The translations under genes and the position numbers were made by a program. From contig JADCGQ010000013.1 of assembly GCA_020248945.1 (NCBI GenBank), forward strand, positions 1 through 64,000: a stretch of 64,000 nt of DNA, given 5' to 3'. How positions within the stretch are numbered: the stretch's first letter is position 1; every line of letters starts with the position of its first letter. Shown here in pieces: positions 10,506 through 41,794 of this stretch. The notes below the pieces were generated by a model. That model had not been told where the DNA came from. It did not search any database and worked only from the letters and a program-made list of their open reading frames with translations. Source of the DNA: Rubrivivax sp. Lineage in GTDB: Bacteria; Pseudomonadota; Gammaproteobacteria; Burkholderiales; Burkholderiaceae_C.

Positions 10506-10524
10506 GGCAGGCGGCTCCCGGCCT

Positions 10525-21363: not shown

Positions 21364-22361
21364 GCGGCCACCGTGGCTGCCGCCACCTCGGTCGGAGCTG
21401 GGCGAACACGTTGCAGCATCAGGCGCGCCATCCAACGCGCCAGGCCGGTGTCCCAGGGCGTGAAGCGCGGGAGCTGGAAGCGATCACTGCTGCCGTCATC
21501 CACACCCTGGGCGGTGCTCACGGCTCCCGCGAAGCCGGCCTCGCGAACCATCGCCACATGGCGGTGGTCGTAGTCGTGTCCGGGACGTCCATTGGGGTAC
21601 GCGAAGCTGGTCACCGGCGCCTGAAGCAGGTCCTGCAGACGCTCCCGGCCGCGCACGATCTGCTCGCGTGCCTCGGCCTCGGGCAGCACACGCAGGATCG
21701 GGTGGTCGCAGGTGTGGCCGCCGATCTCCATGCCCGCCTGGTGCAGGCGACGCAGCTTCTGCGTGCTCATCATCAGGTCGTCGGGCAAAGCCGGATGACC
21801 TGCCGCCTTGGCCAATGCGACAAGGCCTTGCTCGCGTTCGGCCAGCGGGCTGTACTTCAGCCGCGGCAGCACCGCGTCGATCGCCCGTCGACGCTGCGCG
21901 GCATCGCCCAGCGGCAGCCGCCCCAGGCCCAGGGCCGAGGCATCCAGCTCGATTGCGCGACAGCCACGGATGGTCTCGATCGCACTGTCGTTCCACATCC
22001 GGCCACCGTCGAGGAAGCCGCTGGCGACGAAGAAGCTTGCCTTCAGGCCATGGCGTTGCAGGATCGGCAGGGCGATGTCCGCGTTGTCGGCATAGCCGTC
22101 GTCGAACGTGATCGCCAGCGCACGCGATGGCAACTGCTGCCGCTCGCGTCGCTCCAGCGCCTGGGCCAGCGTCAGCACGTTGAAGCCGCGTGCCACGCGC
22201 GCCATCAGGGCGTCGAAGCGTGCGGCATGCATCTCGCCGGGGAACAGCGGGTCAGGCTCCGGAAGCACACGGTGGAAGATCAGGATCGCCAGGCGATTCG
22301 GTGCCCAAAGGTCGGCGACGCCAGCCGCCGCGCGCCAGGCCAGCGAGTCGGGCGCACTCAT
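21360..22361 (-). CDS. Polysaccharide deacetylase (CE4, NodB-type)
   Basis: 333 residues of the NodB homology type. The metal/catalytic motif 1 is TFDDGYADN near residue 87, motif 2 is GGHTCDHP near residue 223 and motif 3 is FAYPNGRPGHDYD near residue 258. No signal peptide is evident, so it may act in the cytoplasm on lipid-linked or nucleotide-linked intermediates. It removes N- or O-acetyl groups. The gene overlaps both neighbours by ATGA. Confidence 0.9.
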   Translation of the reverse strand: MSAPDSLAWRAAAGVADLWAPNRLAILIFHRVLPEPDPLFPGEMHAARFDALMARVARGFNVLTLAQALERRERQQLPSRALAITFDDGYADNADIALPILQRHGLKASFFVASGFLDGGRMWNDSAIETIRGCRAIELDASALGLGRLPLGDAAQRRRAIDAVLPRLKYSPLAEREQGLVALAKAAGHPALPDDLMMSTQKLRRLHQAGMEIGGHTCDHPILRVLPEAEAREQIVRGRERLQDLLQAPVTSFAYPNGRPGHDYDHRHVAMVREAGFAGAVSTAQGVDDGSSDRFQLPRFTPWDTGLARWMARLMLQRVRPAPTEVAAATVAA

Positions 22362-23779
22362 CGCGGCACCTTGCCGGCCTGCGGCAGGACACGGGGCTTC
22401 AGCCCGGCCGCCGCCACCGACGGATCGCGAGCTGCGGCCGCGGGTACCGCCGGTGCAGCGAAGTTCGGCGGCGTCCCCGGCACCGGCAATCCGGCCTCGA
22501 CACGCCGCACGATGGCGTACCCGATGACAACGAACCCGCAGATGTAGTACGGCAGGTCGAGATACGCGATGCTCAGGAAGCTGCCGCCGATGGCGTATCC
22601 GATCAGGCTGACCTGAACCATGCGCATCAGCACCGGCAGCCAGAGCGCGAGATCGGCCCCCTCGCCAGGCTTCTCGGCCAGCGCCTTGGCTCGCCGGGCG
22701 ACACCACCAGCGCTCAGCCAGGTGGCGACGCCAATGCCGACGAACAGCCCGAAGCCGACGAAACCGTGTTCGCCCATCACCTGGAACCAGATGCTATGCG
22801 CCACATATACCGCGCCGGCGAAGACCTCCCACTGCCCGCCCTGTGGGGCGTATCGCGAGAAGACCGCGGGGTTGTCAGCTACAAAGCCGGCGCCGACGAA
22901 TGGCCTGTCGACGGCGGCATTGAAGAGCGTCTGCCAGGTCCAGATGCGAGACATAGCGGAACCGTCCTGCTGGTAGGTCTTGATCGTGTCCATGCGGTCC
23001 GACCAGGTGTCGGGCATGAAGGCCAGGGCCACCATCAACAGCGCCACGATGCCCAGGCTGGTGCGGACCGGGTACTTGCCCTTGAGTCCCAGGAACATGG
23101 CCATCGAGACCAGGGCCAGCAAGGCGCCACGTGACTGGCTGCCGAGAATGGAGAACGCGCAGGAAATCATGGAGAACAGCAGCACATGCCGGACCCAGGC
23201 ACGCGACTCGGTCGCTCGCAGGAAGTACATCATCGGCATCAGCATCACTAGCCCGACCGCCAGCTCGTTGTTGCCCTGGAGCATGCCCCCGGGAGGCCCC
23301 CAAACGCGACCGCCGCCACCGGTCAACACCGTCCAGACCCCGCCCTTGATGCCGAAGAAGGCGACAGAGAGCGTCACCACCCAGACCAGCACGCGGAGCT
23401 GTTTGCCGTCTACGACCAGCGCCCAGGTGACAAACAGCATCAACTGAATCTTCATCACGAAGAACCAGCGATCCCGCACCGCGTCGGCGGGCGCTATCGC
23501 GAAGAACGAGGTCACGGTCATCCAGGTCAGCAGGGCCAACAGCAGGACAACGATGGGACTCGACCACGGTATGTTCTGGCGCTTTCGCGTCATCATGAAC
23601 ATGCCTAGGACCACCAGCGCTGAGATCTGGGCGAACGGCAGGCTGTGCGCGAAGCCATAGGCCAGCTTGTGCGGGTTCATCAGCGAGACCCAGGTGTACA
23701 GGTAGGCCCCGATCACCGGATGCTTGAACGCCACGGGCAGCAGCACCGCGAACAAGGCCACGAGGGCGATGTCACGCAT
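22358..23779 (-). CDS. XrtA-associated O-antigen ligase-like protein (O-glycosylation ligase family)
   Basis: 473-residue membrane protein of the exosortase A-associated ligase family, WzyC-fold. It has about eleven helices and a long periplasmic loop with WGPPGGMLQGNNELAVGL; SQSRGALLAL and the loop around PFVGAGF and VAHSIWFQVMGEHG contain the conserved arginine and histidine. It would either polymerise repeat units or transfer the glycan to proteins. The ATG at 23779 overlaps the CapK-like gene by eight bases; an upstream GTG is less likely. The C-terminal 60 residues are a Pro/Ala-rich tail. Confidence 0.92.
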   Translation of the reverse strand: MRDIALVALFAVLLPVAFKHPVIGAYLYTWVSLMNPHKLAYGFAHSLPFAQISALVVLGMFMMTRKRQNIPWSSPIVVLLLALLTWMTVTSFFAIAPADAVRDRWFFVMKIQLMLFVTWALVVDGKQLRVLVWVVTLSVAFFGIKGGVWTVLTGGGGRVWGPPGGMLQGNNELAVGLVMLMPMMYFLRATESRAWVRHVLLFSMISCAFSILGSQSRGALLALVSMAMFLGLKGKYPVRTSLGIVALLMVALAFMPDTWSDRMDTIKTYQQDGSAMSRIWTWQTLFNAAVDRPFVGAGFVADNPAVFSRYAPQGGQWEVFAGAVYVAHSIWFQVMGEHGFVGFGLFVGIGVATWLSAGGVARRAKALAEKPGEGADLALWLPVLMRMVQVSLIGYAIGGSFLSIAYLDLPYYICGFVVIGYAIVRRVEAGLPVPGTPPNFAAPAVPAAAARDPSVAAAGLKPRVLPQAGKVPR

Positions 23780-25166
23780 GGCCGACACCCGCAGTGGCTG
23801 ACGTTTCCGGCTCGGTCAGCGCGTGGCTGACGATGTAGCGGTGCTTGCCGGACTTCTCGGGCGCGATGGCCTCGACCAGCGACACGTCGACCTGCACCGC
23901 TTCGCCAAGCCGGCGGCGGACCCCGGCCGCGATCTGCGCCAGCAGCGCCGGATCGAAACCCGGCTCGGGGACGATGCTGACCTCGGTGCGCTGCCGGCTC
24001 CACTGCACGACCTTGAAGCTCTGGATGCGCGGCAGCTCGCGGATCACGTAGATCAGCGCCAGGCCATGCATCACGGTGCCGTTGGCGGCGACGACGAAGT
24101 CGGTCGTGCGCCCCTGCAGCTCGCGAAGGATCGGCAGCCCGCGGCCGCAGGCGCAGCGGGTGTCGGCATCGAGCACGCCGACATCGCCGGTGCGATAGCG
24201 CACGAACGGGAACTCCGCCGTCGCGAGGTGCGTGACCACGATCTCCCCGGCCTGCCCCGCGGCCACCGGCCGGCCTTCGGGGTCGACCGTCTCGACGACG
24301 ATGTCCTCGGCGCTGAGGTGCAGGCTGCCGGAAGGGCACTCGTGGGCAATGAAGCCGGCGTCGCGTCCCCCGTAGCCGTTGGCGACCGGGCAACCGAGGA
24401 TGCGCTGGATGCGCGAACGCTGCTCGTCGTACAGACGTTCGCTGGTGACGAAGGCGACGCGGATGCCGAGGTCGTCGAGTCGCTGGCCGTGGCTCTCGGC
24501 ATGGCGCGCGATGTGGTCGATCGCTGACGGGTAACCGAACACCATCGCCGGCCGTTTGCGGCGCAGCGCCGCGACAAACCCGTTCAGCCGCTGCGGCGAC
24601 ATCTCGAAAGCCGGCAGCAGCGTGCTGCGCAGCAGGCCGTCGCGCAGGGCCCGGACTCGGTCCTGCGCGCCGTGCTCGATGGGCGAGCCCCAGATCACCG
24701 CTTCGCGGTCGCCAATGTCCACGCCCCACCAGCGCGTCGCGCGCCACTTGGCCGCCACGTCGTGGCTCTTGCGCGCCTTGCCGATGAAGAACACCAGCGG
24801 CTCACCCGACGAGCCGCCGGTGTTGTAGCGCGACAGCGGACCATGGCCCTCGGCCTTCATCGCGTCGGCGTTCTGCCGGATGGTCGCCTTGGTCAGCAGC
24901 GGCAGCGCTGCCAGGTCGGCCACCGAGCGCAGCGATGCCGGCTCGAACCGCTGCGCACGGAACAAGTCGCGCCAGTACGGGACGCGTCTGCCGATGTCGA
25001 CCAGGAAGTCCCGCAGGCGCTGAACCTGCAGCACGCGGATCTGCTCGGGCTCCAGCCACTGGGAGGCTTCCAGCCGGCGCCGCTCGGCAACGCTGGCGTG
25101 ACCCTTGAGCCGCTCGTGCAGCGGGAACAACACGCCACTGGCCAGATGCGTGTAGAGGTCGCGCAT
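23772..25166 (-). CDS. CapK-like phenylacetate-CoA ligase family protein
   Basis: 464-residue adenylate-forming enzyme of the CapK/PaaK group common in capsule and EPS loci. RYNTGGSSGEPLVFF near residue 118 is the ATP-binding loop, GYGGRDAGFIAHEC near 265 and FPFVRYRTGDVG near 316 are later core motifs, and APEKSGKHRYIV at the C-terminus carries the lysine. A zinc-like cysteine pair lies in CACGRG. Probably activates an acyl or amino acid group for transfer to the polysaccharide. It lies four bases upstream of the methyltransferase stop-start junction. Confidence 0.85.
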   Translation of the reverse strand: MRDLYTHLASGVLFPLHERLKGHASVAERRRLEASQWLEPEQIRVLQVQRLRDFLVDIGRRVPYWRDLFRAQRFEPASLRSVADLAALPLLTKATIRQNADAMKAEGHGPLSRYNTGGSSGEPLVFFIGKARKSHDVAAKWRATRWWGVDIGDREAVIWGSPIEHGAQDRVRALRDGLLRSTLLPAFEMSPQRLNGFVAALRRKRPAMVFGYPSAIDHIARHAESHGQRLDDLGIRVAFVTSERLYDEQRSRIQRILGCPVANGYGGRDAGFIAHECPSGSLHLSAEDIVVETVDPEGRPVAAGQAGEIVVTHLATAEFPFVRYRTGDVGVLDADTRCACGRGLPILRELQGRTTDFVVAANGTVMHGLALIYVIRELPRIQSFKVVQWSRQRTEVSIVPEPGFDPALLAQIAAGVRRRLGEAVQVDVSLVEAIAPEKSGKHRYIVSHALTEPETSATAGVGHA

Positions 25167-25924: not shown

Positions 25925-28090
25925 TCAGTGCTGACGAATGGACTCGCCATCGGCCGCCAGCGCCACACCAGCGCGGCGGTAGGCGCTGAGCCACTGCTGG
26001 CGCACCTGCGGCCAGGCAAAACGTGCGGCCTCGGCCCTGCCGTGGCGACGCAGGGTCTCGGCCAGTGCCGGATCGGCGAGCAGGCGCAGGGCCTGCTCGG
26101 CCATCGCCTGCACGTCACCCACCGGCACGAGCAGCGCGCTGCGGCCATGTTCGACCATGTCCGGGATGCCACCGGCGCGGGTGCTGACCACCGGCACGCC
26201 GCTGGCCAGCGCCTCGAGGATGGAGATCGGCATGTTGTCTGCAGTGCTCGGGTTCAGCATCAGGTCGGCACTGGCGTACAGCGCGCCGATGTCGGCGTTC
26301 TCGATCCGGCCACTGAAGCGCACCGCGTTGGCGATGCCCAGCGACGCGGCCAGGTCCTGAAGCGCCGACAGCTCAGGGCCGCTTCCGGCCACCGTGAGCC
26401 GGGCATTCGGGTGGGTGGCGCGCAGCAAGGCAAACGCACGCAATGCGGTCGGGATGTCGTAGATCGCCTCGAGGTTTCGCGTCACGACGACATGCGGCCC
26501 GGCGCTTGTCGCGGCCAGCGGCGGCGCGAAGGCGAAGCGCTGCAGGTCGATGATGTTCGGGATGATCTCGGCGCTCAGCCCGTGGCGGGCAAACACCCGC
26601 TGCAGGAAGACCGATGGCGTCACCCGCAGCGCCGCTGCGGCGAGATGGCGCTTGACGTGCGACGGTGCGGCGTTGAAGAAGTCATCGGCCTGCCCGCCCC
26701 GGTAGTTGACGATCGTCGGCACGCCACGCCAGGCGGCGATGCGCAACGCAGGCGCTGCACAGAGATGCCAGGCCCAGCCCGAGTTGGCGAACACGTGCAT
26801 CACCTGCGCCCGCCCGCAAGCGCGCCACAGCGCCAGCAGGTAGGGCAGCAGCCGGAACGCTGCCCGCAGCATCGGGACGCGCCCGGCCCAGGCCGGCCGA
26901 TACGGCGCATTCGTGCGCACCAGCTCGACCCGTGCGCCTTCGCCTTGCAACAGACGCACCAGCTGCTCGCACTGGTTGGCCATGCCACCGGACGGCGGTG
27001 GCAACGGGCCGACGACGCAGACCCGCGGCCAGGCGTCGGCCGCCAGCGGGGCCGAGGAGACCGCCATCGCGGCACCCGAGCGCCGTGGCCAGACCAGCAG
27101 CAGCAGGCCCAGCACGCCGAGCAGCATCGCGGCATGCAGGCGCAGCTTCAGTCGCGCCATGGCCTCGCGCTGCGCCACGTTGCCGGGCTCGGCCAGGATG
27201 CGGATACCGGGCTGCACGCCCGAGGCGATGGCGCCCACGCCCTCGAGGATGCGCGAGGTGCCGGCGAACAGGCGCACCACCGGCGCGGCGTCGAACGTGA
27301 ACGGGTTGCGTCCCCAGGGCAGATACCACTCGGCCAGGCCCTGGCGCAAGTAGTGCCAGGCCTTGTCCGGCTCGATGTAGCCGGGCCGGCTGCCTTCATG
27401 GAGCAGGTTCAGCTGCAAGGCAGCGCCGCTGCGCATCGCGTCGCGCAGGGCCAGGGCCGACAACGGAAGCTGCGGATCGTCCGCGCGCGAGAACCAGTAG
27501 TTGTCGAACACGTCGGCGAGTTGCCAGCGCGACTGGGCCGCGTTCCAGACCTCGACCCAGATGTGGCCGTGCCCGCCAAAGCCGTCGAACGAAAACGCCC
27601 ACGGCCGCACCTGCATGCCGGCCGCCCCGGCAATGGCCATGAAGGCGCGGACGTAGTCGCCGCAATAGCCTTGCCCCTGCTTCACGATGGCCGAGTGGGT
27701 TTCGACCAGGCCGGCCTGGACGGGCCCACCGACCAGCACCGGCGCCGACCCCAGAAGATGCTGCGTGATCGCCCGCGTGCGCGCCCAGTCGTCGGGCAGA
27801 TCGGCCAGATTCAGCTTCGCCACCAGGTCGACGAAGTAAGGCGCGGGAGCCACACGCTCGGTCTCGTAGCCCTTCGGCACCACCGGGGGTTGCCAGTCGT
27901 CGCGTTCGGGCACGAAGTCCGGCCCCAAGGCCAGGGCATGGCGGATGCGAACCAGCTCGGTGCCGCTGAACAGATGCGGCGCCACCAGCGCCACGGCTAC
28001 CACCAGCAGCAGCGCGCCCAGGCCGCGTCGGCCGATGCCGCCGCGTTGGCGTCGCTGCGGCAGGCGGATGACCGCCGGCTCCGGAGTCAC
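25925..28090 (-). CDS. Membrane transglutaminase-like domain fused to GT4 glycosyltransferase
   Basis: A single open frame of 721 residues with two activities. A basic N-terminus (RRQRGGIGRR) precedes a helix at about 24-40; residues 60-310 form a transglutaminase/protease-like domain with GYCGDY (Cys143), GHGHIW (His176) and ADVFDNYW (Asp193), the expected triad order. A second helix at 320-334 is followed by basic residues and by a GT-B family 4 glycosyltransferase (GPLPPPSGGMANQ at 361; EIIPNIIDL; SADLMLNPS and EALASGVPVVS). The positive charges place the first domain in the periplasm and the GT4 in the cytoplasm. The GTG at 28090 shares GTGA with the dehydrogenase stop. No internal stop or frameshift is seen, so this is a real fusion rather than two genes. 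Confidence 0.85.
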   Translation of the reverse strand: MTPEPAVIRLPQRRQRGGIGRRGLGALLLVVAVALVAPHLFSGTELVRIRHALALGPDFVPERDDWQPPVVPKGYETERVAPAPYFVDLVAKLNLADLPDDWARTRAITQHLLGSAPVLVGGPVQAGLVETHSAIVKQGQGYCGDYVRAFMAIAGAAGMQVRPWAFSFDGFGGHGHIWVEVWNAAQSRWQLADVFDNYWFSRADDPQLPLSALALRDAMRSGAALQLNLLHEGSRPGYIEPDKAWHYLRQGLAEWYLPWGRNPFTFDAAPVVRLFAGTSRILEGVGAIASGVQPGIRILAEPGNVAQREAMARLKLRLHAAMLLGVLGLLLLVWPRRSGAAMAVSSAPLAADAWPRVCVVGPLPPPSGGMANQCEQLVRLLQGEGARVELVRTNAPYRPAWAGRVPMLRAAFRLLPYLLALWRACGRAQVMHVFANSGWAWHLCAAPALRIAAWRGVPTIVNYRGGQADDFFNAAPSHVKRHLAAAALRVTPSVFLQRVFARHGLSAEIIPNIIDLQRFAFAPPLAATSAGPHVVVTRNLEAIYDIPTALRAFALLRATHPNARLTVAGSGPELSALQDLAASLGIANAVRFSGRIENADIGALYASADLMLNPSTADNMPISILEALASGVPVVSTRAGGIPDMVEHGRSALLVPVGDVQAMAEQALRLLADPALAETLRRHGRAEAARFAWPQVRQQWLSAYRRAGVALAADGESIRQH

Positions 28091-29415
28091 CAGCTCAACC
28101 CTTGCACCGGCACGGGCAAGGTCTGGCCGGCCGGCAGGCCCACCAGGTCGATCACCCGCTGCCCCGGGCGCAGCAGCGCCGCCAGCGCCTCGGTCACGAC
28201 CCGGCTGCTGCTGCCGAGCACGATGACGTCGCTCGCGCCGACGACCTCGTGCAGCTCGGCCTTCAGCATCTGGCCGATGTGCGGCAGGTGCTGGGCGATG
28301 AAGTTCTTGTTCGCGCCGAGCAGCCGCGCCAGGTGGACCTCGGGGTCGTAGATGGCCAGCTCGCAGCCCTTGCCGATCAGGCGCTCGGCAAGCGTCACCA
28401 GCGGGCTCTCGCGCAGGTCGTCGGTGCCGGTCTTGAAGCTCAGGCCGACAAAGCCGACCTTGCGGCTGCCGGCGGTGGCGCTGGCCGCCATCACCTTGTC
28501 GAAGGCCAGGTCCAGGTGCGCGTCGTTGCTGACCAGGATGCTCGCGAGCATCGGCAGCGCCACGTCGCGCTGCTTGGCCAGGTAGGCGGTGGCGCGCAGG
28601 TCCTTGGGCAGGCAGGAGCCGCCGAACGCAAAGCCGGGCTTGAGGTAGGCGCGGCTGATGTTGAGCTGGGTGTCCTGGCAGACCAGGTCCATGACCTCGA
28701 ACGGATCGACGCCCAGCGCACCGCACAGGCGCGCGGTTTCGTTGGCGAAGGTGATCTTCAGGGCGTGGAAGTTGTTGCAGCAGTACTTCATCATCTCGGC
28801 CGCCCGGACCGAGGTTTCGAGGTACTTGCACGGCAGGTGGCCGAACAGCTCGCGCAGCCGTTCGTGGGCGTAGGGCGCGTTGGCGCCGACGATGGTGAAC
28901 GGCGGCTTGTCGTAGTCGCGGATCGAGCTGCCCTCGCGCAGGAATTCGGGCTGGAAGCACAGGTGGAAGTCCGCGCCGTCCTTCTTGCCCGAGTGCTGCT
29001 CGATGATCGGCCGCAGCACGTCCTCGACCGTGCCCGGCACGAGCGTGGATCGCATGACGACGACATGCGGCGTGGCCTTGCGCTTCAGCGCCGCGCCCAT
29101 CTCGGCGGCCAGGCGCAGGATCGCACCCTGGTCCTGGCTGCCGTTGGCCGCCGACGGCGTGCCGACGCAGACCAGGCTGATGTCGGATTCGAGCACCGCC
29201 TTGGCGGCATCGGTCGTGACCTCGACGCGGCCGCTGGCGGCGACCTCGCGCATCAGGTCGACCATGCCTTCTTCGACCACCGGGGTGTTGCCTGCGGCAA
29301 TGAGGTCGAGCTTGGTGCGGTCGATGTCGACGCCGATCACGTGGTGGCCGTCGCGGGCCAGGCAGGCCAGCGACACCGCGCCGACGTAGCCCAGGCCGAA
29401 GATGCTGATGTTCAT
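28087..29415 (-). CDS. GDP-mannose 6-dehydrogenase-like nucleotide sugar dehydrogenase (AlgD-like)
   Basis: 442-residue dehydrogenase that oxidises C6 of a nucleotide sugar to a uronate with two NAD+. The Rossmann start is ISIFGLGYVGAV; the catalytic cysteine is Cys268 in FGGSCLPKD, the same number as in Pseudomonas AlgD; KVGFVGLSFKTGTDDLRESP and GANKNFI also follow AlgD rather than UDP-glucose dehydrogenase. It should make GDP-mannuronate, although UDP-glucose cannot be excluded. It overlaps both neighbours by four bases. Confidence 0.86.
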   Translation of the reverse strand: MNISIFGLGYVGAVSLACLARDGHHVIGVDIDRTKLDLIAAGNTPVVEEGMVDLMREVAASGRVEVTTDAAKAVLESDISLVCVGTPSAANGSQDQGAILRLAAEMGAALKRKATPHVVVMRSTLVPGTVEDVLRPIIEQHSGKKDGADFHLCFQPEFLREGSSIRDYDKPPFTIVGANAPYAHERLRELFGHLPCKYLETSVRAAEMMKYCCNNFHALKITFANETARLCGALGVDPFEVMDLVCQDTQLNISRAYLKPGFAFGGSCLPKDLRATAYLAKQRDVALPMLASILVSNDAHLDLAFDKVMAASATAGSRKVGFVGLSFKTGTDDLRESPLVTLAERLIGKGCELAIYDPEVHLARLLGANKNFIAQHLPHIGQMLKAELHEVVGASDVIVLGSSSRVVTEALAALLRPGQRVIDLVGLPAGQTLPVPVQGLSW

Positions 29416-30644
29416 GCGGAAGTACCAGAAGGAAGGCTTCGGTTGTTGCGGGCGGAGAACTCGCGCACGCAGCGGCCGACGATGCGGTCCAGGCGCTGCA
29501 TTGAGCTTGGCCAGGCGTGGTGGCTCAGCATGCGTTCGCGACCGGCAGCGGCCAGACGGGCCCGTTCGGCCGGGTGGTCGACGATGCGCAGCACCGCCTC
29601 GGCAATCGCCTCGGGGGCATCGGCGACCAGGAAGTGCTGGTCGGCCTCGGCATCGACGCCGCCGGCGGCGGCCGTCGAGGTGACCACCGGCACGCCCATC
29701 GCCATCGCTTCGAGGATCTTATTCTGCGTGCCGCGGGCGATGGCCAGCGGCGCCACCATCAGCGCCGAATCGCGGACATAGGGCTGGACCTCGGGCACCG
29801 AGCCGGTGACGACGACACCCGGCAGATCGCCCAGGGCGCGCATCTGCGGCGACGGATCGGCACCGACGATCTTCAGCTTCAGGCCCGGGCGGCGGGCCTT
29901 GAGCAGCGGCCAGACGTCCTTGCAGAAGCGCGCCATGCACTCCTGATTGGGGTAGTAGTCCATGCGGCCGATGAAGCTCAGCGTGTCGGCGTCATAGGCG
30001 CCGTCGGTGGGCGAAAAGACCTGGGCGTCGACGCCATTGGGGAACCAGTCGGTCGCCGCGCCGGTACCGTAGTCGTTCAGCGCCTGCCACTCGGCGCGCG
30101 TGGTCGCGGTGCACAGGTCGAAGCGGCGGGCCAGACGCTTCTCGGCCCACAGCATCTTCGTGCCTTCAAGCGTGTAGCCCCAGGACAGCGGCCAGGGCTT
30201 GTAGTTCGCGTACTCCAGCCACTTCTGCGAGTCCATGTCGCCGAAGTCCAGGATCTTGGGCGTGTCGGTAACGTGCTCCACGTACTGGGCGACCGACGAG
30301 CAGTGCACGAAGATCAGGTCGAAGCGATCCTTGGCCAGCAGCCGCTGCACCTTGGCGGCGAGTTCGCCGCTGTAGAAGTAGCCCATCGAGCTCGGTGTCG
30401 TCAGCGGCAGGCGGACGATCATCCGGGCGAACTGCACCGGCTCGCGGACGTGGCCCATCTCGAAGTGCGTGCAATGCGGGGCGATGCCACGGCCCTCTTC
30501 GGCCTCGGCCTCGCTGCGCGCGAGCGAACACACCGTGACACGATGCCCGGCCTGGTGCAGATGCCGGATCATGTTGAACGGCCGGATCTTGCCGCCACGC
30601 TTGGGCTTGAACGGAAAGCGGTGGCAGAGGTAGAGGATGTTCAT
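29412..30644 (-). CDS. XrtA-associated glycosyltransferase, stp1-type (GT4)
   Basis: 410-residue GT-B glycosyltransferase of the first PEP-CTERM/EpsH1-associated sugar transferase family. It starts with ILYLCHRFPFKPKRGGKIR, has DFGDMDSQKW near residue 130, WFPNGVDAQVF in the second domain and the nucleotide-sugar region APLAIARGTQNKILEAMAMG near residue 320. Located in the cytoplasm, it adds one sugar to the EPS repeat. The ATG at 30644 shares ATGA with the amidotransferase stop; the longer frame to 31445 is a shadow. Confidence 0.92.
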   Translation of the reverse strand: MNILYLCHRFPFKPKRGGKIRPFNMIRHLHQAGHRVTVCSLARSEAEAEEGRGIAPHCTHFEMGHVREPVQFARMIVRLPLTTPSSMGYFYSGELAAKVQRLLAKDRFDLIFVHCSSVAQYVEHVTDTPKILDFGDMDSQKWLEYANYKPWPLSWGYTLEGTKMLWAEKRLARRFDLCTATTRAEWQALNDYGTGAATDWFPNGVDAQVFSPTDGAYDADTLSFIGRMDYYPNQECMARFCKDVWPLLKARRPGLKLKIVGADPSPQMRALGDLPGVVVTGSVPEVQPYVRDSALMVAPLAIARGTQNKILEAMAMGVPVVTSTAAAGGVDAEADQHFLVADAPEAIAEAVLRIVDHPAERARLAAAGRERMLSHHAWPSSMQRLDRIVGRCVREFSARNNRSLPSGTSA

Positions 30645-32620
30645 GCCGCCATCCTCTGGACCCCACGGGCGCTGCCGGGCGCGGCCATCTCGTGCAACTC
30701 GTCGGCCAGGTCGCTGGCCGAGCGGCCGTCCAGGTACAGCCGGCTCCAGACCTCGAGGTTCATCAGCGTCAGCAAGGCATCGGTGCCGTCGCTGCGCTGG
30801 GCCTCGTGGTCGGCCATCAGGGCCGATACGACGTGGGGGTCGAACAGGCCGCGCCGGCGCACCGCCTCGGGGGCCAGCAGGCCACGCAGCACCGGGGCCA
30901 ACTCCTTCTTCAACCACGCGCCCATCGGCGTGCCGAACCCGCGCTTCTTGCGGTGCAGGATGTCGTCGGGCAAGGTCGGCGTCAACGCCTTCTTCAGCAC
31001 GTGCTTCAGCTGCCCGCCCTGCACCTTCAGTGCCGTCGGCATCGCCGCGGCCAGGTCGAGCAGGTTCTGGTCGAGCAGCGGTACGCGGCACTCCAGCGAC
31101 ACCGCCATGCTCATCTTGTCGGTCAGCAGCAGCAGGTCGTCGGGCAGCTGCGTCGCCATGTCCACCGCGAGCAGCCGGTTGAGCTCGTCGCCGCCCTCGT
31201 GCACCGCAGGGCCGGCTTGGGCAAAGGCCTCGGCCAGGCGGTCGTGCGCGGGCGGGCGATCGCCGAGCAGCAGGCTGGCGACGACATCGCGCGACATCAC
31301 CTGCACGTAGCTGCGGTAACGCTCGTCGGCCTGCATCTCGGCACTGGCGATGAAGCCCTTGGCCAGCCGCATCGCGTTCAGCAGCTTGTTGTGGCGGTCC
31401 GCCGGCAGCCGCGCGGCGGTGGCCGAGGCCATGCGGCGCGCCCAACCGGGAAGTGCATTGAAGCGGCCCGCGTAATGGCCGCCCAGGTAGCGCCGGTAGC
31501 CACCGAACAGCTCGTCGCCGCCGACGCCCGACAGGATCACCTTGACGTCCTTGCGTGCGAACTGCGACACCAGGTAGGTCGTGATGAACGCGGTGTCGGC
31601 GATCGGCTCGTCCATGTGCCAGAGCAGCTTGGGCAACAGGCCGACGACGTCGGGCTTGACGACGATCTCGTGGTGCTCGGTGCCGAAGAGCTGGGCGACG
31701 CGGCGGGCATAGGGCAGCTCGTTGTAGAGCTGCTCGGCCGGGCCGCCTTCGAAGCCAATCGCGTAGGTGCGGATCGGCTGCCCTCCGCCGTGCCGCGCCA
31801 TGCTGGCCACCACTGCGCTCGAATCGACGCCACCCGACAGAAAGGCACCGATCGGCACGTCGCTCACCATCTGCATGCGCACCGCTTCATCGAGCGTGTC
31901 GCGGACGCGCTCGACCCACTCGGCTTCGCAGGTCACGGTGTCGATGCGCGTCGACAGCGACCACCAGCGCCATTGGCGAACCTGGCCGTCCTCAACCGCC
32001 AGCAAGGTCGCCGGTGGCAGCTTGGCGATGCCCTTGAACAGGCTGTGCGGCGCGGCAACGTAGCCCAGGTGCAGGTAGTCGCCCAGGGCCTCGCGGTTCA
32101 GCTCGGCGCGCAGGCCCGGCAGTTGCAGCAGCGCCTTGGCCTCGGTGGCAAAGGCCAGCCGGCGGCCGTCTTGGTGCACGTACAGCGGCTTGACGCCGAT
32201 GCGGTCGCGGCCGATCAGCAGGCGGCGCCGCCGCGCGTCCCACAGTGCGAAGTCGAACATGCCGTTCAGTCGCGGGACGACCCCGTCGCCCCAAGCCGCA
32301 TAGCCATGCAGCAGGACCTCGGAGTCCGACCCGGTCTTGAAGACATGGCCCAGCGCCTGCAGCTCGGCCCGCAGCTCGCGGAAGTTGTAGATCTCGCCGT
32401 TGCAGACGATGGTGAGCTGGCCGTCGGCGGTGCTGATCGGCTGGTGGCCGCCGGCCAGGTCGATGATCGACAGCCGGCGCATCGCGATGCCACAGTGGCC
32501 GTCGATGTGCTGGCCTTCATCGTCCGGCCCACGGTGTGCAGTGACGCTGCCCATCGCCGTCAGCAGCGCCGACGAGACCGGGCTGCCGTCCAGATGGATC
32601 AGGCCGTGGATACCGCACAT
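30641..32620 (-). CDS. Asparagine-synthase-family amidotransferase
   Basis: 659-residue class II amidotransferase. Met-Cys2-Gly opens the glutaminase domain (MCGIHGLIH; RGPDDEG; CNGEIYNF), and the synthetase P-loop SGGVDSS is at residues 262-268 with SGVGGDELFGGYRR later. It would use glutamine nitrogen to amidate an activated carboxylate, for example a uronic acid in the EPS. In contrast to the 553-residue relative at 2864, the glutaminase nucleophile is intact. The ATG at 32620 is five bases after the upstream glycosyltransferase stop. Confidence 0.9.
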   Translation of the reverse strand: MCGIHGLIHLDGSPVSSALLTAMGSVTAHRGPDDEGQHIDGHCGIAMRRLSIIDLAGGHQPISTADGQLTIVCNGEIYNFRELRAELQALGHVFKTGSDSEVLLHGYAAWGDGVVPRLNGMFDFALWDARRRRLLIGRDRIGVKPLYVHQDGRRLAFATEAKALLQLPGLRAELNREALGDYLHLGYVAAPHSLFKGIAKLPPATLLAVEDGQVRQWRWWSLSTRIDTVTCEAEWVERVRDTLDEAVRMQMVSDVPIGAFLSGGVDSSAVVASMARHGGGQPIRTYAIGFEGGPAEQLYNELPYARRVAQLFGTEHHEIVVKPDVVGLLPKLLWHMDEPIADTAFITTYLVSQFARKDVKVILSGVGGDELFGGYRRYLGGHYAGRFNALPGWARRMASATAARLPADRHNKLLNAMRLAKGFIASAEMQADERYRSYVQVMSRDVVASLLLGDRPPAHDRLAEAFAQAGPAVHEGGDELNRLLAVDMATQLPDDLLLLTDKMSMAVSLECRVPLLDQNLLDLAAAMPTALKVQGGQLKHVLKKALTPTLPDDILHRKKRGFGTPMGAWLKKELAPVLRGLLAPEAVRRRGLFDPHVVSALMADHEAQRSDGTDALLTLMNLEVWSRLYLDGRSASDLADELHEMAAPGSARGVQRMAA

Positions 32621-32625
32621 GCGCG

Positions 32626-33843
32626 TCAGGCCCCCAGCGCTGCCGGCACGGCCAGGCCTCGGCGCGACAAGGCCAGACGATAGACCTCGGCATAGCGCGC
32701 CACGCTCGCGGTCCAGGTGCGCTCCTGTTCGACGAATCGACGTGCACTGGCGCGCATCTGCGGCCAGCGGTCCTGGTCGGCCAGCGCATCGACAAGGCCC
32801 TGCGCCAGCGCCGTCGCATCGCCGGCCGGGCACAGGTAGCCGGTGTCGCGGTGGCGGATCAGCTCGCGGTGGCCGCCGACGTTGCTGGCGACAAAGATGC
32901 GACCCTGGGCCATGGCCTCCAGCGGCTTGAGCGGCGTCACCAGTTCGGTCAGTCGAATGGGCAGCCGCGGGTAGGCCAGCACGTCGATCAGCCCGTAGTA
33001 GCGCTGGACCTCGGCATGCGGCACGCGTCCCGTGAAGACCACCGCATCGGCCAGGCCCGCGGCCTGGACCTGCGCCTTCAGCGCCGCCTCCTGCGGTCCG
33101 CCGCCGACAAGCAGCAGCACCACGTCGGGGCGCGTCCGGCGCAGCTGCGCCAGCGCGTCGACCAGGAGATGCAGGCCCTCGTAACCATAGAACGAACCGG
33201 CAAAGCCGATCACCGTCTTGCCTTGCAGTCCGAGCTTGGCTTGCAGTTCGGCCGAGGCCGGCATCCCGAACTGGAAATTGGTCACGTCGACCGCGTTCGG
33301 GATCACGGTGATCTTCTGCTCGGCGATCCCGCGCGCGGCAATGTCGCCGCGCAGGCCTTCGCAGATCGTCGTGATCTGGTCGGCGCCCTTGAGTGCCAGG
33401 GTCTCCAGTCCACGCGACACGCGGTAGCGCAGGCTGCCCTCGGTCGTCGTGCCGTGGTCGACCGCGGCATCCTCCCACGAGGCCCGCATCTCGTAGACCA
33501 CCGGCAGCCGCTTGCGAAGCCGCACCCACAGCGCCGGCAGCGCGTTGAGCACCGGCGAATGGGCGTGGATCAGGTCCGGGCGTTCGGCCTCGCAGACTTC
33601 GGCGATGCGCGCTGCGGTCAGGCGCATCTGCGCCAGCAGGCCCTCGTGTCCGCCATTCGGGGTGCGGTGCAGCGTCAGGCCGTCGACCGACTCCTCGCGC
33701 GCGGCGCCGGCGCCCTGTTTGGGCGTCGTCAACTGCAGCGTGGTCCAGCCGCGGCGACGCTGCTCGCGCAGGATCGCCAGCGTGCGGAACGTGTAGCCGC
33801 TGTGCAGCGGGATCGAGTGATCCAGCACGTGCAGTATGCGCAT
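32626..33843 (-). CDS. XrtA-associated GT4 glycosyltransferase
   Basis: 405-residue GT-B glycosyltransferase of the exosortase A-associated family that begins ILHVLDHSIPLHSGYTFRT. Later motifs are HAHSPVLNALPA, YEMRASWEDAAVDHG, VIPNAVDVTNF and the donor site region RLTELVTPLKPLEAMAQG. Probably adds a hexose to the lipid-linked intermediate. Its ATG and the upstream stop share one base (TGATG), consistent with coupling. Confidence 0.92.
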   Translation of the reverse strand: MRILHVLDHSIPLHSGYTFRTLAILREQRRRGWTTLQLTTPKQGAGAAREESVDGLTLHRTPNGGHEGLLAQMRLTAARIAEVCEAERPDLIHAHSPVLNALPALWVRLRKRLPVVYEMRASWEDAAVDHGTTTEGSLRYRVSRGLETLALKGADQITTICEGLRGDIAARGIAEQKITVIPNAVDVTNFQFGMPASAELQAKLGLQGKTVIGFAGSFYGYEGLHLLVDALAQLRRTRPDVVLLLVGGGPQEAALKAQVQAAGLADAVVFTGRVPHAEVQRYYGLIDVLAYPRLPIRLTELVTPLKPLEAMAQGRIFVASNVGGHRELIRHRDTGYLCPAGDATALAQGLVDALADQDRWPQMRASARRFVEQERTWTASVARYAEVYRLALSRRGLAVPAALGA

Positions 33844-35789
33844 CAGGCAGCGGCCTCCAGGGCCGTCGGCACGGCGGCGCTGCCACCCGTGCCCTGGCCG
33901 TCCATCACGTTGCGCAGGAAGCCGTCGAACATAAGCAGCGTCCACAACGGCGCGCTGTAGTCGCGCTGGCCGCTGCTGTGGGCGTCGACCAGGTGGCGCA
34001 GGTAGGTCGGGTCGAACCAGCCGGTGTCGAGCAGCCGCGGGCCGAGCAGGCTGTCGCGCACGCGCTGCTTCAGCGGACCGCGGAACCAGCGCGCCAGCGG
34101 CACCGCAAAGCCCATCTTCGGCCGGTACAGGATGTCATGCGGCAGGGCCGGCTCCATCGCCTTCTTCAGCAGCCACTTGCCTTCGTTGCCGCGCACCTTC
34201 ATGTCGGTGGGCAGCGTCGCCAGCCACTCGACCAGCGGGTGGTCCATCAGCGGCTCGCGGACCTCCAGGCTGTGCGCCATGCTGGCGCGGTCGACCTTGG
34301 TGTTGATGTCACCGACGAGGTAGGTCTTCAGGTCCAGGTACTGGATCAGCGCCAGCGGATCGTCGGTCCCGGCGTTGGCGGCATGCCGGTCGAACACCGC
34401 GCGGGCGTTGTAGCCGCCGAGCTCGCGCTTGAACGCCGGGCTGAACATCTGCGCGCGCATCGGGTCGCGCAGGATCGAGACGCTGTGGAAGTAGGCCTCG
34501 ACCGAGCTGCGCGCCATGCCCTCGAAGGTGGTCTTGGCGCGGAACATGCGCGGCGCCCAGTCGGCCTTCGGGTACACCCGTCCGAGCAGGCCGAACACCG
34601 GCCGGCGCAGGCCTGCAGGCAGTACCGAGCGCATGCGCTCTTCCATCAGGTGCAGTCGGTAGCGCCGGTAGCCGCCGAAGCTCTCGTCGCCACCGTCGCC
34701 CGAAAGCGCCACCGTCACGCGCTTGCGCGCCAGCTGGCACACCCGGTAGGTCGGGATCGCCGAGCTGTCGGCGTAGGGCTCGTCGTAGAGGCTGGCCAGC
34801 GTGTCGAGCAGGCCGAAGTCGTCGCTCTTGACGGTCTCGACGAAGTGGTCGGTGCGGTAGCGGTCGGCCACCGTCTTGGCGAACGCCGCTTCATCGAAGG
34901 CCGGGTCGTCGAAGGCGATCGAGCAGGTGTGCACCGGCGCGTCCGACAGCCCCGCCATCGTCGCGACCACGGCCGAGCTGTCCACGCCGCCGCTCAGGAA
35001 GGCGCCAAGCGGCACCTCGGAGATCATGCGCAGCTTCACCGATTCGGCCAGCCGCTCGCGCAGCTCGACCTGGGCATCGGCCGCCGAGACCGGGTTGTCG
35101 AGCGTGAAGCGCACATCCCAGTAGGGGTTGGACTGCGGCATCGGCTCGCCACGCCGCCACAGCATCAGGTGCCCGGGCTCGAGCTTGCGCGCCTGGCGGA
35201 AGACGGTCCGCGGCTCGGCCGAATAGCCAAGCGCGAAGTACTCCTCCACCGCATACGGGTCGATCTCGCGCTTCAGGCCGCCGTGGGCCAGCAGGGTCTT
35301 CAGTTCGGAGCCGAAGAGCAGCCAGCCGTCGTCCAGCAACGCGTAGTGCATGGGCTTGACGCCGAGCCGGTCGCGCGCCATGAACAGGGTCTGCTTCGTC
35401 CGGTCCCAGAGCGTGAACGCGAACATGCCGCGCAGCCGCTGCACGCAATCCGCACCCCAGGCCCGCCAGGCGTTGACGATGACTTCGGTGTCGCTCTTGG
35501 TCCGGAACGCCAAGCCCAGGGCCTGCAGTTCGGCCATCAGCGGCTGGTAGTTGTAGATCTCGCCGTTGAACACGATGACGACGCTGCCGTCGGCGCTGTG
35601 CAGCGGCTGCTGGCCGGTGGCGATGTCGATGATCGACAGCCGCCGGTGGCCGAAGCCCAGGCCCGGCTCAAGGTGCACGCTGCCTTCGTCCGGGCCGCGG
35701 TGGTGCTGAGCATCGTTCATGCGCGCCAGCACGCTAGCGTCGGGCGCGCGCGCGCCACGGGTATCGAAGAGGCCGGTGATACCGCACAT
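33843..35789 (-). CDS. XrtA-associated amidotransferase 1 (asparagine synthase family)
   Basis: 648 residues, closest to the exosortase A-specific amidotransferase 1 family. Cys2 in MCGITGLFDTRG is the glutaminase nucleophile, followed by HRGPDEG, HRRLSIIDIATGQQPL and FNGEIYNY. The synthetase loop SGGVDSS is at residues 266-272 and ALSGDGGDESFGGYRR follows. It should transfer glutamine nitrogen to an EPS precursor. The ATG at 35789 is chosen because it supplies Cys2; seven further upstream codons are out of family. It is the first gene of the eleven-gene operon; its promoter must be in 35790-36626. Confidence 0.93.
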   Translation of the reverse strand: MCGITGLFDTRGARAPDASVLARMNDAQHHRGPDEGSVHLEPGLGFGHRRLSIIDIATGQQPLHSADGSVVIVFNGEIYNYQPLMAELQALGLAFRTKSDTEVIVNAWRAWGADCVQRLRGMFAFTLWDRTKQTLFMARDRLGVKPMHYALLDDGWLLFGSELKTLLAHGGLKREIDPYAVEEYFALGYSAEPRTVFRQARKLEPGHLMLWRRGEPMPQSNPYWDVRFTLDNPVSAADAQVELRERLAESVKLRMISEVPLGAFLSGGVDSSAVVATMAGLSDAPVHTCSIAFDDPAFDEAAFAKTVADRYRTDHFVETVKSDDFGLLDTLASLYDEPYADSSAIPTYRVCQLARKRVTVALSGDGGDESFGGYRRYRLHLMEERMRSVLPAGLRRPVFGLLGRVYPKADWAPRMFRAKTTFEGMARSSVEAYFHSVSILRDPMRAQMFSPAFKRELGGYNARAVFDRHAANAGTDDPLALIQYLDLKTYLVGDINTKVDRASMAHSLEVREPLMDHPLVEWLATLPTDMKVRGNEGKWLLKKAMEPALPHDILYRPKMGFAVPLARWFRGPLKQRVRDSLLGPRLLDTGWFDPTYLRHLVDAHSSGQRDYSAPLWTLLMFDGFLRNVMDGQGTGGSAAVPTALEAAA

Positions 35790-36626
35790 GGGCTGGTCAG
35801 GTGGGCTCAAGCCCCGAATCCAAAGCCTGGAATCCTACGCCAGCACCTCGTCCCGGTCGGTGCGGTCATGGCGGCGCAGGCTGGGCCGCATGACTTCTGG
35901 CACGAAGATATGCCGGGCACTCGCAGAACCCGGGAGCTAGACAATCGGATGTGTCTGCTATCGCTCAAACAGAGGTGCTCAATTGATCTGTGACCTTGTT
36001 ACTGGACAGAGGAGCTTGAAGCCTTCGTAAGGAAGCTCAGGTGGTTCATGAGCGAAGAAGTAGTGTTTGCATCTTCAAGGTTTCGGCTTAGTGCGTGGGG
36101 TTGCATTCGGGCGCGGGGCCTTTCGCACTGATCAGTACGTAACTTGCCACGCGCCGACAGCCATCGAAGCTGAGCGAGTTCTAGAGTTCGGTCAACGCTC
36201 AGAGGTCGCAGAGATTCTGCGCCGCTTCGATGCTCGCATTGGGAGCAGCAGGCGCAAAGGCGCGCTCTTGCCGGTCACGCGTAGCAAGCCTGTGGACGGA
36301 CTCCAACTCCGAGTTCCGCAAATCCGGGCGCCCCACGGAGGCCACGGTAAGCTGCTCGAGCCGCCCGGCGTCATCACTACGGGCCTCTAAGAGTTGGACG
36401 TAGCTCCGCGAGAAGCCGTGGGGGAGCTTGATTGAATCGGAGAGTCAGCTCTTCTGCCGCCATGGACTGTCGAAGTTGGGAAGTCAGTCTACGCCGGGAG
36501 GGCTGCCGTGGATGTACGGCCAGAAGCAGGTCGGCGCCTCAGATTCAATGCCATCCCGCCTTTAGCACCGGACCTCGACATCGATTGTGACGAACGCGTC
36601 TAGCGGTTGCGCCGGAGGCCGCGCTC
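35790..36626. other. Lower-GC stretch without a recognisable gene
   Basis: An 837-base gap, by far the longest in the window, with visibly more A and T than its neighbours. Both flanking operons run on the minus strand, so the left part must hold the promoter of the amidotransferase operon. Short open frames exist, such as a plus-strand 107-codon frame at 36067-36390, but none resembles a protein I know and none has a good ribosome binding site. No inverted terminal repeats or transposase motifs are seen. Confidence 0.55.
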
Positions 36627-39173: not shown

Positions 39174-40748
39174 TCAGCGAGCCGAGGAGCGCACCTGCTC
39201 CAGGTGCGCCACCAGCGCCGGCAGGTGCTGGCCGATGAAGGTGTCGACGCGGTTAACCGCCGCGGGGCCGTCGCCGTTGGTGTAGATGGTCAGGAGTGCG
39301 GCATCGTCGCCCTGGCCTCCTAGTCGCGTCAGCACGCCGGCTGCCACGGCTTGCTGGCCACTTGTGGTCAGACGGCCGCCGGCCCACAGCACTTGCCGCA
39401 CCACGAGCGCGTCGCGCTGCGCGCTGATCGCGCCAGTGCGACCGCCCACCAGTTGGGTGGCCCGCATCGCCACCGCATCCGCGCCTAGTCCGGGGACCGG
39501 CACGCGCACGGTGCCGCCTGACAAGCGGTTCCAGTAAGAGTCGTCCGAACGGACCAGTACGTTGTTGGAACTCGTGACCTTGATGCCGTAAGTCTGGTGG
39601 CGGTAATAGCCCACGTCCACGGTCACAGGCTGGCCGTCGACGGTGTACACGCGGTGCGCTTGGGCGGCTGCGCCTTCGAAGTGGGGCTGCAGTTTCAGCG
39701 TCTGGTCTGCCGCCGCGGGCGCTCCGGGCAGATCGGGCAGCACCAGCTTCAACGGCGGCATGGTCGAAGGGTGCTGCAGCGCCCATGACGCCGCAGGACC
39801 GATGGCCAAGGCGGCGACCGCCAGTCCGGCCGCGGGCCACTGTCGCAGCCCGAAGGCACCCTGCATGGCTGCGGGCCCGACGGTCGGAGAGGGATCCGGC
39901 TCAAGCGGGGGCTCTGACCAGCGCGCGCCAATCACGAACATGATGCCGATGACGACGCCGAAGAACACCCAACCGTAGATGAGGTGGTCCACGCCGACGG
40001 CGATCTTGTTGCCCGACAGGTGCCCGAGCATCACGATCATGTAGGCGCGCACCCAGTTGGCCACGATGGGCACGAGGATGGACACGCCGACGAAGATCCA
40101 GCGCCGCTTGGCCGAGTTGTAGTTGAGGTAAGCGAACAGCGTGCCTACCATGAAGCTAGCGATGAGGTAGCGCACACCGCTGCAGGCCTCGACCACGCTC
40201 CAGGCGCCCGAGGGGATGATGAACTGCAGGCCCTCGCGGTACACCGGTATGCCGGTGGCGACCAGCGCCCACACGGTGAAGTCGGCCGTCCACTCCATCA
40301 TCACGTCGGTGGTGAACTCGCCGATCGGCACCATGAAGAGCAGGAAGCCGAGCGGGAACATGATCTGCCGCGCCACCGCCAGGCCCAGCACGGCCGGCAC
40401 GGCAAGCACCAGCAGCGCCGTCACCGCCAGCTGCGTGACGGCGTTGATGCCGGCCAGGTCGCCGAGCAGCCAGCCGAAGGCCACCACCGCCATGGGCAGC
40501 AGCACCCAGGGCGCGGGCTTAGGCGTCAGCAGGACCAGCTCTCCGCGCAGGCGCCACACCAGCCAGATCACGATGGGCGGCACGAGCCAGGCGTGGGCGA
40601 AGGTCTCGGAGCGTGTCCAGATGCCAGCCATCGCGACGAAAGTGTCGCGATACAGAAGGCCGATGGCCAGCAAAACAGCCAAAACCGACAGTAAGGCAGG
40701 ACGCCATGGCGACAGGGCGGTTGGAAAGGAGACGATAGTGGTGGACAT
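39174..40748 (-). CDS. xrtA: Exosortase A with C-terminal EpsI domain
   Basis: 524-residue integral membrane transpeptidase-like enzyme that cleaves PEP-CTERM proteins at the membrane. About eight helices fill residues 15-275; the catalytic triad-like residues are Cys189 in VVEACSGVRYL, Arg234 in NWVRAYMI and His255 in VGVDHLIYGW. Residues 290-524 form the periplasmic EpsI domain usual for XrtA. The ATG at 40748 follows AGGGTGAG at good spacing; a GTG at 40760 overlapping the FemAB stop is the alternative. Its known local substrate is the PEP-CTERM protein at 53367. Confidence 0.96.
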   Translation of the reverse strand: MSTTIVSFPTALSPWRPALLSVLAVLLAIGLLYRDTFVAMAGIWTRSETFAHAWLVPPIVIWLVWRLRGELVLLTPKPAPWVLLPMAVVAFGWLLGDLAGINAVTQLAVTALLVLAVPAVLGLAVARQIMFPLGFLLFMVPIGEFTTDVMMEWTADFTVWALVATGIPVYREGLQFIIPSGAWSVVEACSGVRYLIASFMVGTLFAYLNYNSAKRRWIFVGVSILVPIVANWVRAYMIVMLGHLSGNKIAVGVDHLIYGWVFFGVVIGIMFVIGARWSEPPLEPDPSPTVGPAAMQGAFGLRQWPAAGLAVAALAIGPAASWALQHPSTMPPLKLVLPDLPGAPAAADQTLKLQPHFEGAAAQAHRVYTVDGQPVTVDVGYYRHQTYGIKVTSSNNVLVRSDDSYWNRLSGGTVRVPVPGLGADAVAMRATQLVGGRTGAISAQRDALVVRQVLWAGGRLTTSGQQAVAAGVLTRLGGQGDDAALLTIYTNGDGPAAVNRVDTFIGQHLPALVAHLEQVRSSAR

Positions 40749-40756
40749 GCTCAATC

Positions 40757-41794
40757 TCACCCTAGGCTCTTGACGATGTGCGGCCCCAGCCAGTTCGCCA
40801 CGCCCAGCGGCAGCCGGCGCCAGCCTTCGATCATCAGCCGGTACTTCGCGTTGGTCGGGTTGTTCTGGGGCACGGTGTCGCGCTTGTAGAGGCGGTACTC
40901 GTAGTGCAGGGGTTCGGGCTCGAAGCCCCAGTTCTTCTTGAAGTCGAACGGGCCGGTGCCGCGCTTGCTGCGGCCGTAGTCGAACGTGGTGCAGCCGCGC
41001 GCCGCCGCGCGGCGCATCAGCTCCCAGTATTTGAAGTCATTGGCCGCCAGGCCGCGGGCAGCTTCGTCGTCGCCGGCATAGTAGGGCAGCACTTCGTCAC
41101 GGAAGTAGAAGCTCACCACGCTCGAGAGCAGCCGGCCCTCGGGCGAGGTGACGGTGAGTACTTCACAGTCCTTGCCGAACTCGCGCTTCAGCGTCTCGAA
41201 CCAGCGCTTGGGCAGCGCCGGCGTGCCGTGGCGGTGCACGTTGTCGGCGTACAGCGCGAAGAAGCGCTCCATGCCCTCGTCCTGCGTCGCCACGAGGCCG
41301 TTCTTGATGCCCTTGCGCACCATCGCGCGCTGCTTGCGCGGGATGGCATTCATGTTGGCCTCGTCGTCGGCCGTGATGGCCTTGCGGAAGGTGACGTACA
41401 GGTCCTGCTCGGGCCAGTCGGGGTGGCGGCGCGTGGTGTGGCGCAGCTCCAGATGCGGCACGTCGAGCTGGCGCGCCATCGCATCGGCTGCGGCCACCAG
41501 GGCTTGCGCGCTGGCCTCGTCGGCCGCCGCCACGCCGCCGTACACGCAGAACGGCAGGCTGGTGAGCGAGTTGCCGAACAGCCGGCTCTTCACATGCGCC
41601 AGCGGCAGCACGCCGGTGATGCGGCCAGCCTGCGTGGCCTGCAGGAAGTGCGTCTCGTGGCGGAACACGCTTTCGAGCGCGCGGCCCCAGCCGCTGAGGT
41701 GGCAAAAGCGCGCCTCGGGGCATTCGCGCACGAAGGCGTCCCAGCGCGACGCCGCGGTGGCGTCGCCTACCGAAAGGCGATCGACCTGCACCAT
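40757..41794 (-). CDS. XrtA-associated FemAB-type acyl/aminoacyltransferase
   Basis: 345 residues of the FemAB family specific to PEP-CTERM systems. Signature parts are ARFCHLSGWGRALESVF, PFCVYGGV, MNAIPRKQRAMVRKGIKNGL near residue 150, FDYGRSKRGTGPFDFKKNWGF near residue 285. FemAB enzymes add amino acids from aminoacyl-tRNA or acyl groups; here it probably modifies the EPS or a lipid intermediate. It overlaps or abuts xrtA and follows the deacetylase by nine bases. Confidence 0.93.
   Translation of the reverse strand: MVQVDRLSVGDATAASRWDAFVRECPEARFCHLSGWGRALESVFRHETHFLQATQAGRITGVLPLAHVKSRLFGNSLTSLPFCVYGGVAAADEASAQALVAAADAMARQLDVPHLELRHTTRRHPDWPEQDLYVTFRKAITADDEANMNAIPRKQRAMVRKGIKNGLVATQDEGMERFFALYADNVHRHGTPALPKRWFETLKREFGKDCEVLTVTSPEGRLLSSVVSFYFRDEVLPYYAGDDEAARGLAANDFKYWELMRRAAARGCTTFDYGRSKRGTGPFDFKKNWGFEPEPLHYEYRLYKRDTVPQNNPTNAKYRLMIEGWRRLPLGVANWLGPHIVKSLG

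Follow-up and report, generated by a model that had tools for sequence, protein, structure and literature searches.

The finishing of XrtA polymers and the joining of PEP-CTERM proteins are poorly known. In the 64,000-nucleotide stretch of Rubrivivax sp. DNA analysed here (hereafter the window), a gene within an exosortase-A (XrtA) exopolysaccharide (EPS) locus appears to place a transglutaminase (TG)-fold domain and a GT4 glycosyltransferase domain in one polypeptide, which raises the questions of whether such a protein is real, how it came about and what it might do to the polymer. Floc formation depends on an XrtA EPS system in at least one bacterium of activated sludge (PMC9850573), and the fusion points to a putative step in EPS finishing.

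The sequence-only reading of this DNA had described a single 721-codon frame without a stop, giving no strand. This was borne out: the frame (721 codons plus stop) lies on the minus strand, and its first codon, GTG, overlaps the stop of the upstream dehydrogenase gene (GTGA). Positions 25925-28090 are also an open frame on the plus strand, which we set aside since it is the minus strand that encodes the domains. The gene and its parts are as follows.

25925..28090, minus strand: TG::GT4 fusion gene (721 aa, GTG start; Pfam)
27974..28030, minus strand: first transmembrane (TM) helix, residues 21-39 (AlphaFold helix; hydropathy)
27194..27964, minus strand: TG-fold part, residues 43-299, predicted periplasmic
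27662..27664, minus strand: Cys143, putative nucleophile
27563..27565, minus strand: His176
27512..27514, minus strand: Asp193
27089..27145, minus strand: second TM segment, residues 316-334, inside AlphaFold helix 302-333
27029..27088, minus strand: linker, residues 335-354 (pLDDT <50 at 337-346)
25955..27028, minus strand: GT4 domain, residues 355-712, GT-B fold
26213..26239, minus strand: D618-x7-E626, at the place of the GT4 EX7E motif (alignment to BshA)

From N to C terminus, the protein comprises a TM helix, the TG-fold domain, a second TM helix, a short linker modelled with low confidence and a complete GT4 domain. Hydropathy revealed two hydrophobic stretches, with peak windows at residues 23-41 and 316-334, and AlphaFold helices were found at residues 21-39 and 302-333; the TG domain is predicted to be periplasmic and the GT4 domain cytoplasmic. 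The full-chain model has a pTM of 0.57 and so does not fix the relative placing of the two domains. The GT4 part matched the Pfam families Glycos_transf_1 (116 bits) and Glyco_transf_4 (32.5 bits), has the GT-B fold and carries an acidic residue-x7-Glu in its C-terminal Rossmann domain, D618-x7-E626, which we take to be the GT4 EX7E motif; Asp618 corresponds to the first Glu of EX7E in BshA, which is 20% identical to the window GT4.

Over the TG part, the sole matching Pfam family was Transglut_core (PF01841; residues 133-193, 28.5 bits against a cut-off of 23). Profile, predicted TG fold and a Cys-His-Asp order on a helix and two strands all place it in the TG superfamily: in the AlphaFold model Cys143 starts helix 143-156, His176 lies in strand 175-183 and Asp193 ends strand 188-193. 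These are the residues, in the same numbering, that the sequence-only reading had picked out, and the anatomy it proposed (a TG-type domain with an intact triad, two TM helices and a GT4 domain) is supported by profile, structural and comparative evidence.

For comparison we used 39 named TG loci, retrieved from one-genome-per-species contigs with two peptide patterns (at least six are apparently shared with the G-numbered genomes mentioned below). The aligned TG rows, 39 in number, came from the window and 38 of these loci, the partial L083 being left out, and all matched PF01841 at E <= 0.01, an E-value threshold and not the curated cut-off. Cys143 and His176 were kept in every row and Asp193 in 37, with Gly in its place in L064 and L069. 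Because one retrieval pattern holds His176, part of the conservation around residues 161-178 follows from the search itself; Cys143 and Asp193 lie outside both patterns, and the TG of genome G567, found without patterns, has Cys, His and Asp at the three triad places. L069:9001-9948 is the second Accumulibacter TG with Gly for the triad Asp.

The best Foldseek matches of the TG domain, all weak, included the TG-type chains TglA of Streptococcus pyogenes (9crn; E 0.0043) and the periplasmic domain of TgpA of Pseudomonas aeruginosa (6g49; E 0.013), both without GT4, and two putative proteases. Searched by sequence against the PDB, the TG part gave only chance-level peptide:N-glycanase matches (E 0.34 and 0.061), the better of which, the mouse protein 2f4m, covers the triad region, is not significant and has an architecture unlike that of the window protein. 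Peptide:N-glycanase is a TG-superfamily enzyme that acts on a sugar-linked amide. Four TG proteins scanned against NCBIfam at E <= 0.001 matched no model.

The surroundings of the gene identify an XrtA/PEP-CTERM EPS locus. Exosortase A is accompanied by FemAB, deacetylase, chain-length, export, PrsT, stp1, stp2, stp3 and ligase genes, and the NCBIfam models TIGR03109, 03019, 03006, 03015, 03016, 03018, 03007, 03027 and 02917 were all matched over cut-off (frames 18346-19605 and 20047-21435 of the locus matched none at E <= 0.01). The neighbours that matter here are listed below.

22358..23788, minus strand: exosortase-A-associated O-glycosylation ligase (TIGR03097)
23772..25166, minus strand: PaaK-like AMP ligase, downstream of the fusion (Pfam, NCBIfam)
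28087..29415, minus strand: UGD, UDP-glucose/GDP-mannose-type dehydrogenase, directly upstream of the fusion (Pfam, NCBIfam)
29412..30644, minus strand: stp1, XrtA-system glycosyltransferase (TIGR03087, 454.4 bits, cut-off 316.65; start inferred)
30641..32620, minus strand: AsnS2, second AsnB-type amidotransferase (start inferred)
33843..35810, minus strand: AsnS1, XrtA/PEP-CTERM amidotransferase (TIGR03108, 1058.6 bits, over cut-off)
39174..40760, minus strand: exosortase A, XrtA (TIGR03109, 338.6 bits, cut-off 208)
40757..41794, minus strand: FemAB family XrtA-associated protein (TIGR03019)

AsnS1 and AsnS2, both in this one XrtA locus, share 39% identity. AsnS2 scored 541.8 bits with TIGR03108, under its cut-off of 816.9, and 482.5 bits with the TIGR01536 model, over the cut-off of 267.1, and may belong to a separate, unnamed amidotransferase subfamily.

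Much of this neighbourhood is conserved as the gene block AsnS2-stp1-UGD-TG-GT4. TG follows immediately after UGD in 36 of the 39 named loci; L095 is one of the three others, and the remaining two start close to the end of a contig. Of the 30 loci that extend 5.5 kb or more upstream, 28 have AsnS2, as do two that extend less far; one of the two exceptions, L081, has an AsnS2 (76%) elsewhere on its contig, some 1.2 kb beyond the examined stretch. The TG gene is nonetheless optional to the AsnS2-stp1-UGD block, since 11 of 21 TG-less loci (14 picked by stp1 scores, 7 by GT4) still have these three genes at >45% identity. Genome G052 (L095, L105) keeps its TG apart from the XrtA locus, which holds AsnS2-stp1-UGD without TG. 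L037, of the window's genus, likewise has AsnS2, stp1 and UGD without TG; the TG-less L039 and L041-L044, also of that genus, have no AsnS2, stp1 or UGD of this kind between stp3 and GT4. With 20 window genes as queries, L098 (UGD-deacetylase-GT4) and L086 (UGD-TG-deacetylase-GT4) differ there by TG alone. The more distant G567 has its TG in another XrtA-type locus, together with a GT4 of the L064 kind (54%), one AsnS1-like gene and one AsnS2-like gene (46% to AsnS2, 35% to AsnS1); the 28 kb searched around this TG gave no UGD or stp1 match.

The sequence-only reading did not recognise the fusion in XrtA loci. As regards the literature this stands: we found no description of a TG::GT4 fusion or of a TG component in the open-licence publications searched. 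The TG/GT4 pair itself turns up repeatedly in loci of the XrtA type, where it is split into two genes more often than it is fused. TG and the same GT4 share one frame in 9 of the 39 named loci (L057, L059, L060, L062, L063, L066, L081, L082, L083) and are adjacent genes in 17 (L061, L065, L067-L078, L080, L084, L085). One gene lies between them in another nine, a deacetylase in L086 and L087 (Sterolibacterium) and an stp3-type glycosyltransferase in L088-L094 (Arsukibacterium). The remaining loci are single cases: a fusion of TG with a GT4 from a different subfamily in L064 (Candidatus Accumulibacter regalis, frame 8176-11280; triad Asp replaced by Gly), a GT4 of that subfamily adjacent to TG in L079, a contig that ends after TG in L058, and a TG without these neighbours in L095. 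The GT4s of L064, L079 and L110 are 40-54% identical among themselves and 28-36% identical to the window GT4 over shorter stretches (28% for L064).

A stop or frameshift missed through sequencing error between the domains is unlikely, given that nine other named loci have the same fusion, although these are not all independent, L081/L082 (near-identical in the TG tree) and L063/L066 being close pairs. Both halves of the gene are under purifying selection, as judged by dN/dS (NG86) between the window and the 92% identical L057, namely 0.058/0.287 for codons 43-315 and 0.027/0.264 for codons 356-712.

The TG is rare. It was present in at least 7 of 61 near relatives (among the matches listed), in at least 4 of 399 genomes of the order sample (where 10 genomes matched in all and six weak matches, at E 1e-5 to 1e-3, were not counted), in at least 2 of 369 of the class sample and in at least 1 of 398, the window's own, of the phylum sample; these counts are lower bounds, as only the first few candidates per genome were scored. 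We considered the TG as a general XrtA component and rejected this, since stp1 occurred in 99 of 399 genomes of what is apparently the same order sample, the four TG genomes among them.

How the fusion arose was examined in a TG tree of the same 39 rows, with three states (fused to this GT4, fused to another GT4, and split for all the rest; L058 was not scored). The tree needs three changes of fusion state, in the Rubrivivax-like clade that contains the window, in Paucibacter/PBB2 and in Accumulibacter regalis. A single origin of the same-type fusions was rejected (p-AU 0.0017 for the nine fused rows as a clade, a group named after the tree was seen), and the linkers of the Rubrivivax-like and Paucibacter/PBB2 groups show no resemblance by eye. 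From these comparisons, genes that were neighbours seem to have fused on more than one occasion.

What might the protein do? The sequence and structural models establish one frame with a predicted TG-superfamily Cys-His-Asp domain, a GT-B/GT4 fold, two hydrophobic helices and a place in a conserved gene block. The sequence-only reading had proposed that sugar addition inside could be coupled to crosslinking or proteolysis outside; gene context adds sugar-carboxamide chemistry as a candidate. UDP-glucuronic acid is the product of UDP-glucose dehydrogenases, GT4 enzymes work on activated sugars in the cytoplasm, and TG-fold enzymes attack amides with a cysteine and then transfer the acyl group to an amine or to water. 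Our preferred reading, held tentatively and at less than even probability, is a two-sided inner-membrane enzyme of the XrtA EPS locus, with sugar transfer inside and Cys-dependent amide chemistry outside on the nascent polymer or a partner. Two neighbouring genes would have fused to give one inner-membrane protein, whose cytoplasmic GT4 domain would, by its family, extend the lipid-linked EPS repeat by one sugar. UGD would supply UDP-glucuronic acid and stp1 would add a sugar of that module, again judging from their families, and AsnS2, by family resemblance, may amidate that sugar to a uronamide, so that the UGD and AsnS2 combination could yield uronic acid and uronamide sugars. On the outer face, in what is the least certain step, Cys143 might attack a carboxamide of the exported polymer (the uronamide) or of a partner, and the acyl group would pass to water or an amine, leaving the EPS deamidated, decorated or crosslinked. 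The fusion would tether sugar transfer and the amide step; it is not needed for pairing them, because most relatives keep two proteins. We prefer this mechanism because the polymer may carry both uronamides and amines, which suit TG chemistry. Counted against it are the block without TG in 11 of 21 loci, the lack of a UGD or stp1 match in the 28 kb searched around the TG of G567, and Gly for Asp193 in L064 and L069. A more specific form, which we regard as quite unlikely, is a sugar transglutaminase that would take AsnS2-made uronamides as acyl donors and join them in the periplasm to amines, linking EPS strands to one another or to proteins by amide bonds. Candidate acceptors would be amino sugars that have been deacetylated, aminoacyl groups and lysines of PEP-CTERM proteins. 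If true, this would amount to covalent crosslinking of a bacterial EPS by an enzyme that is physically joined to a sugar-adding one.

The main rival, which we rate only slightly below the preferred reading, makes the TG a cysteine protease or amidase of the periplasm that acts on a protein and thereby regulates the EPS machinery. Among TG-fold proteins encoded with polysaccharide genes, the nearest experimentally tested case that we found is HvyA of Caulobacter. This TG-like homologue of cysteine proteases is encoded inside a capsule export locus; it is proposed to limit capsule formation, and its function depends on Cys, His and Asp, the three catalytic residues (PMC4241560). By analogy, the TG substrate could be a protein, and TglA, TgpA and the two putative proteases, weak as these Foldseek matches are, point the same way. 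HvyA resembles the window TG in its TG-like fold, triad, periplasmic location (predicted for the window) and surface-polysaccharide locus, but has a signal sequence and a BTLCP domain only, with no GT domain, a comparison made with its published description (PMC4241560). In the loci examined, moreover, the TG stands behind a sugar-precursor gene and not among export genes. The window TG matches Transglut_core alone in Pfam, where BTLCP has a separate model, which may set it apart from the family of HvyA.

Should the substrates of TG and GT4 be unrelated, the two would have fused as operon neighbours and gained co-expression only, which we consider unlikely. The split genes do stand close to fusion: in the 18 split loci (the 17 above and L079) a possible downstream start overlaps the TG stop by four bases in 10, by more in 4 and not at all in 4, judging from predicted starts. 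TG is joined in fused loci to the gene next in line, even where that is a GT4 of another subfamily, so fusion may follow from adjacency alone, and another gene separates the pair in 9 of 39 loci. Against this, the same-type fusion has been kept in diverged Rubrivivax-like genomes and separately in Paucibacter, and both halves of the window gene are under purifying selection. That the TG is a catalytically dead fold which binds polymer or a partner fits the loss of Asp193 in two of 39 rows; we judge it very unlikely in view of the invariant Cys143, which neither retrieval pattern contains, and of Asp in the other 37. Least probable of all, and in our view highly improbable, is that the window makes two products, the fusion and a free GT4. 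The internal start that this needs, which the sequence-only reading had considered near 27065, exists as an in-frame ATG at 27065-27067 (codon 342) with a weak GGGTG just upstream. No other ATG occurs in any linker of the 10 same-type fusions (the window and nine loci), not even in that of L057; the linkers of L057 and L063 have no ATG, GTG or TTG and the other seven have GTG or TTG. With the ATG confined to the window and 2 of 10 linkers lacking any start codon, internal starting is not a conserved feature.

The XrtA/PEP-CTERM loci of Haft 2006 (PMC1569441) share with the window exosortase A, FemAB, amidotransferase, stp1-3 and ligase, but the word transglutaminase is absent from the main text of that paper. 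Each domain is of a known kind. Within the reach of our searches, what is new is their combination across the membrane, the repeated origin of that combination and its link with the AsnS2-stp1-UGD block. The uronamide system of Porphyromonas offers a parallel, its final joining being done by the type IX sortase. In the accessible part of its description, the AsnB-type WbpS/PGN_1234 is needed for glucuronamide and, per the authors, matches the XrtA-locus asparagine synthases of TIGR03108, and VimA matches the XrtA FemAB family (PMC7468200). This pathway is like the window in having an AsnB-type amidotransferase next to sugar genes and unlike it in that the same part of the text mentions no TG-fold enzyme (PMC7468200).

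A rare TG behind a uronic-acid gene, repeatedly fused to GT4, offers a defined gene and residue (Cys143) for EPS amide chemistry, and apparently cultured hosts carry both forms, the split one in Chitinimonas taiwanensis DSM 18899 and the fused one in Paucibacter sp. DJ2R-2 (L081). The latter has two UGD copies (82-1395 and 7574-8887), each 75% identical to that of the window, one of them directly before the TG::GT4 fusion. In L058, a Rubrivivax MAG (L036 is the same contig reversed), the 3' end breaks off in a repeat of Asp-Ala codons that follows the second TM helix of TG, at the position expected for the linker to GT4.
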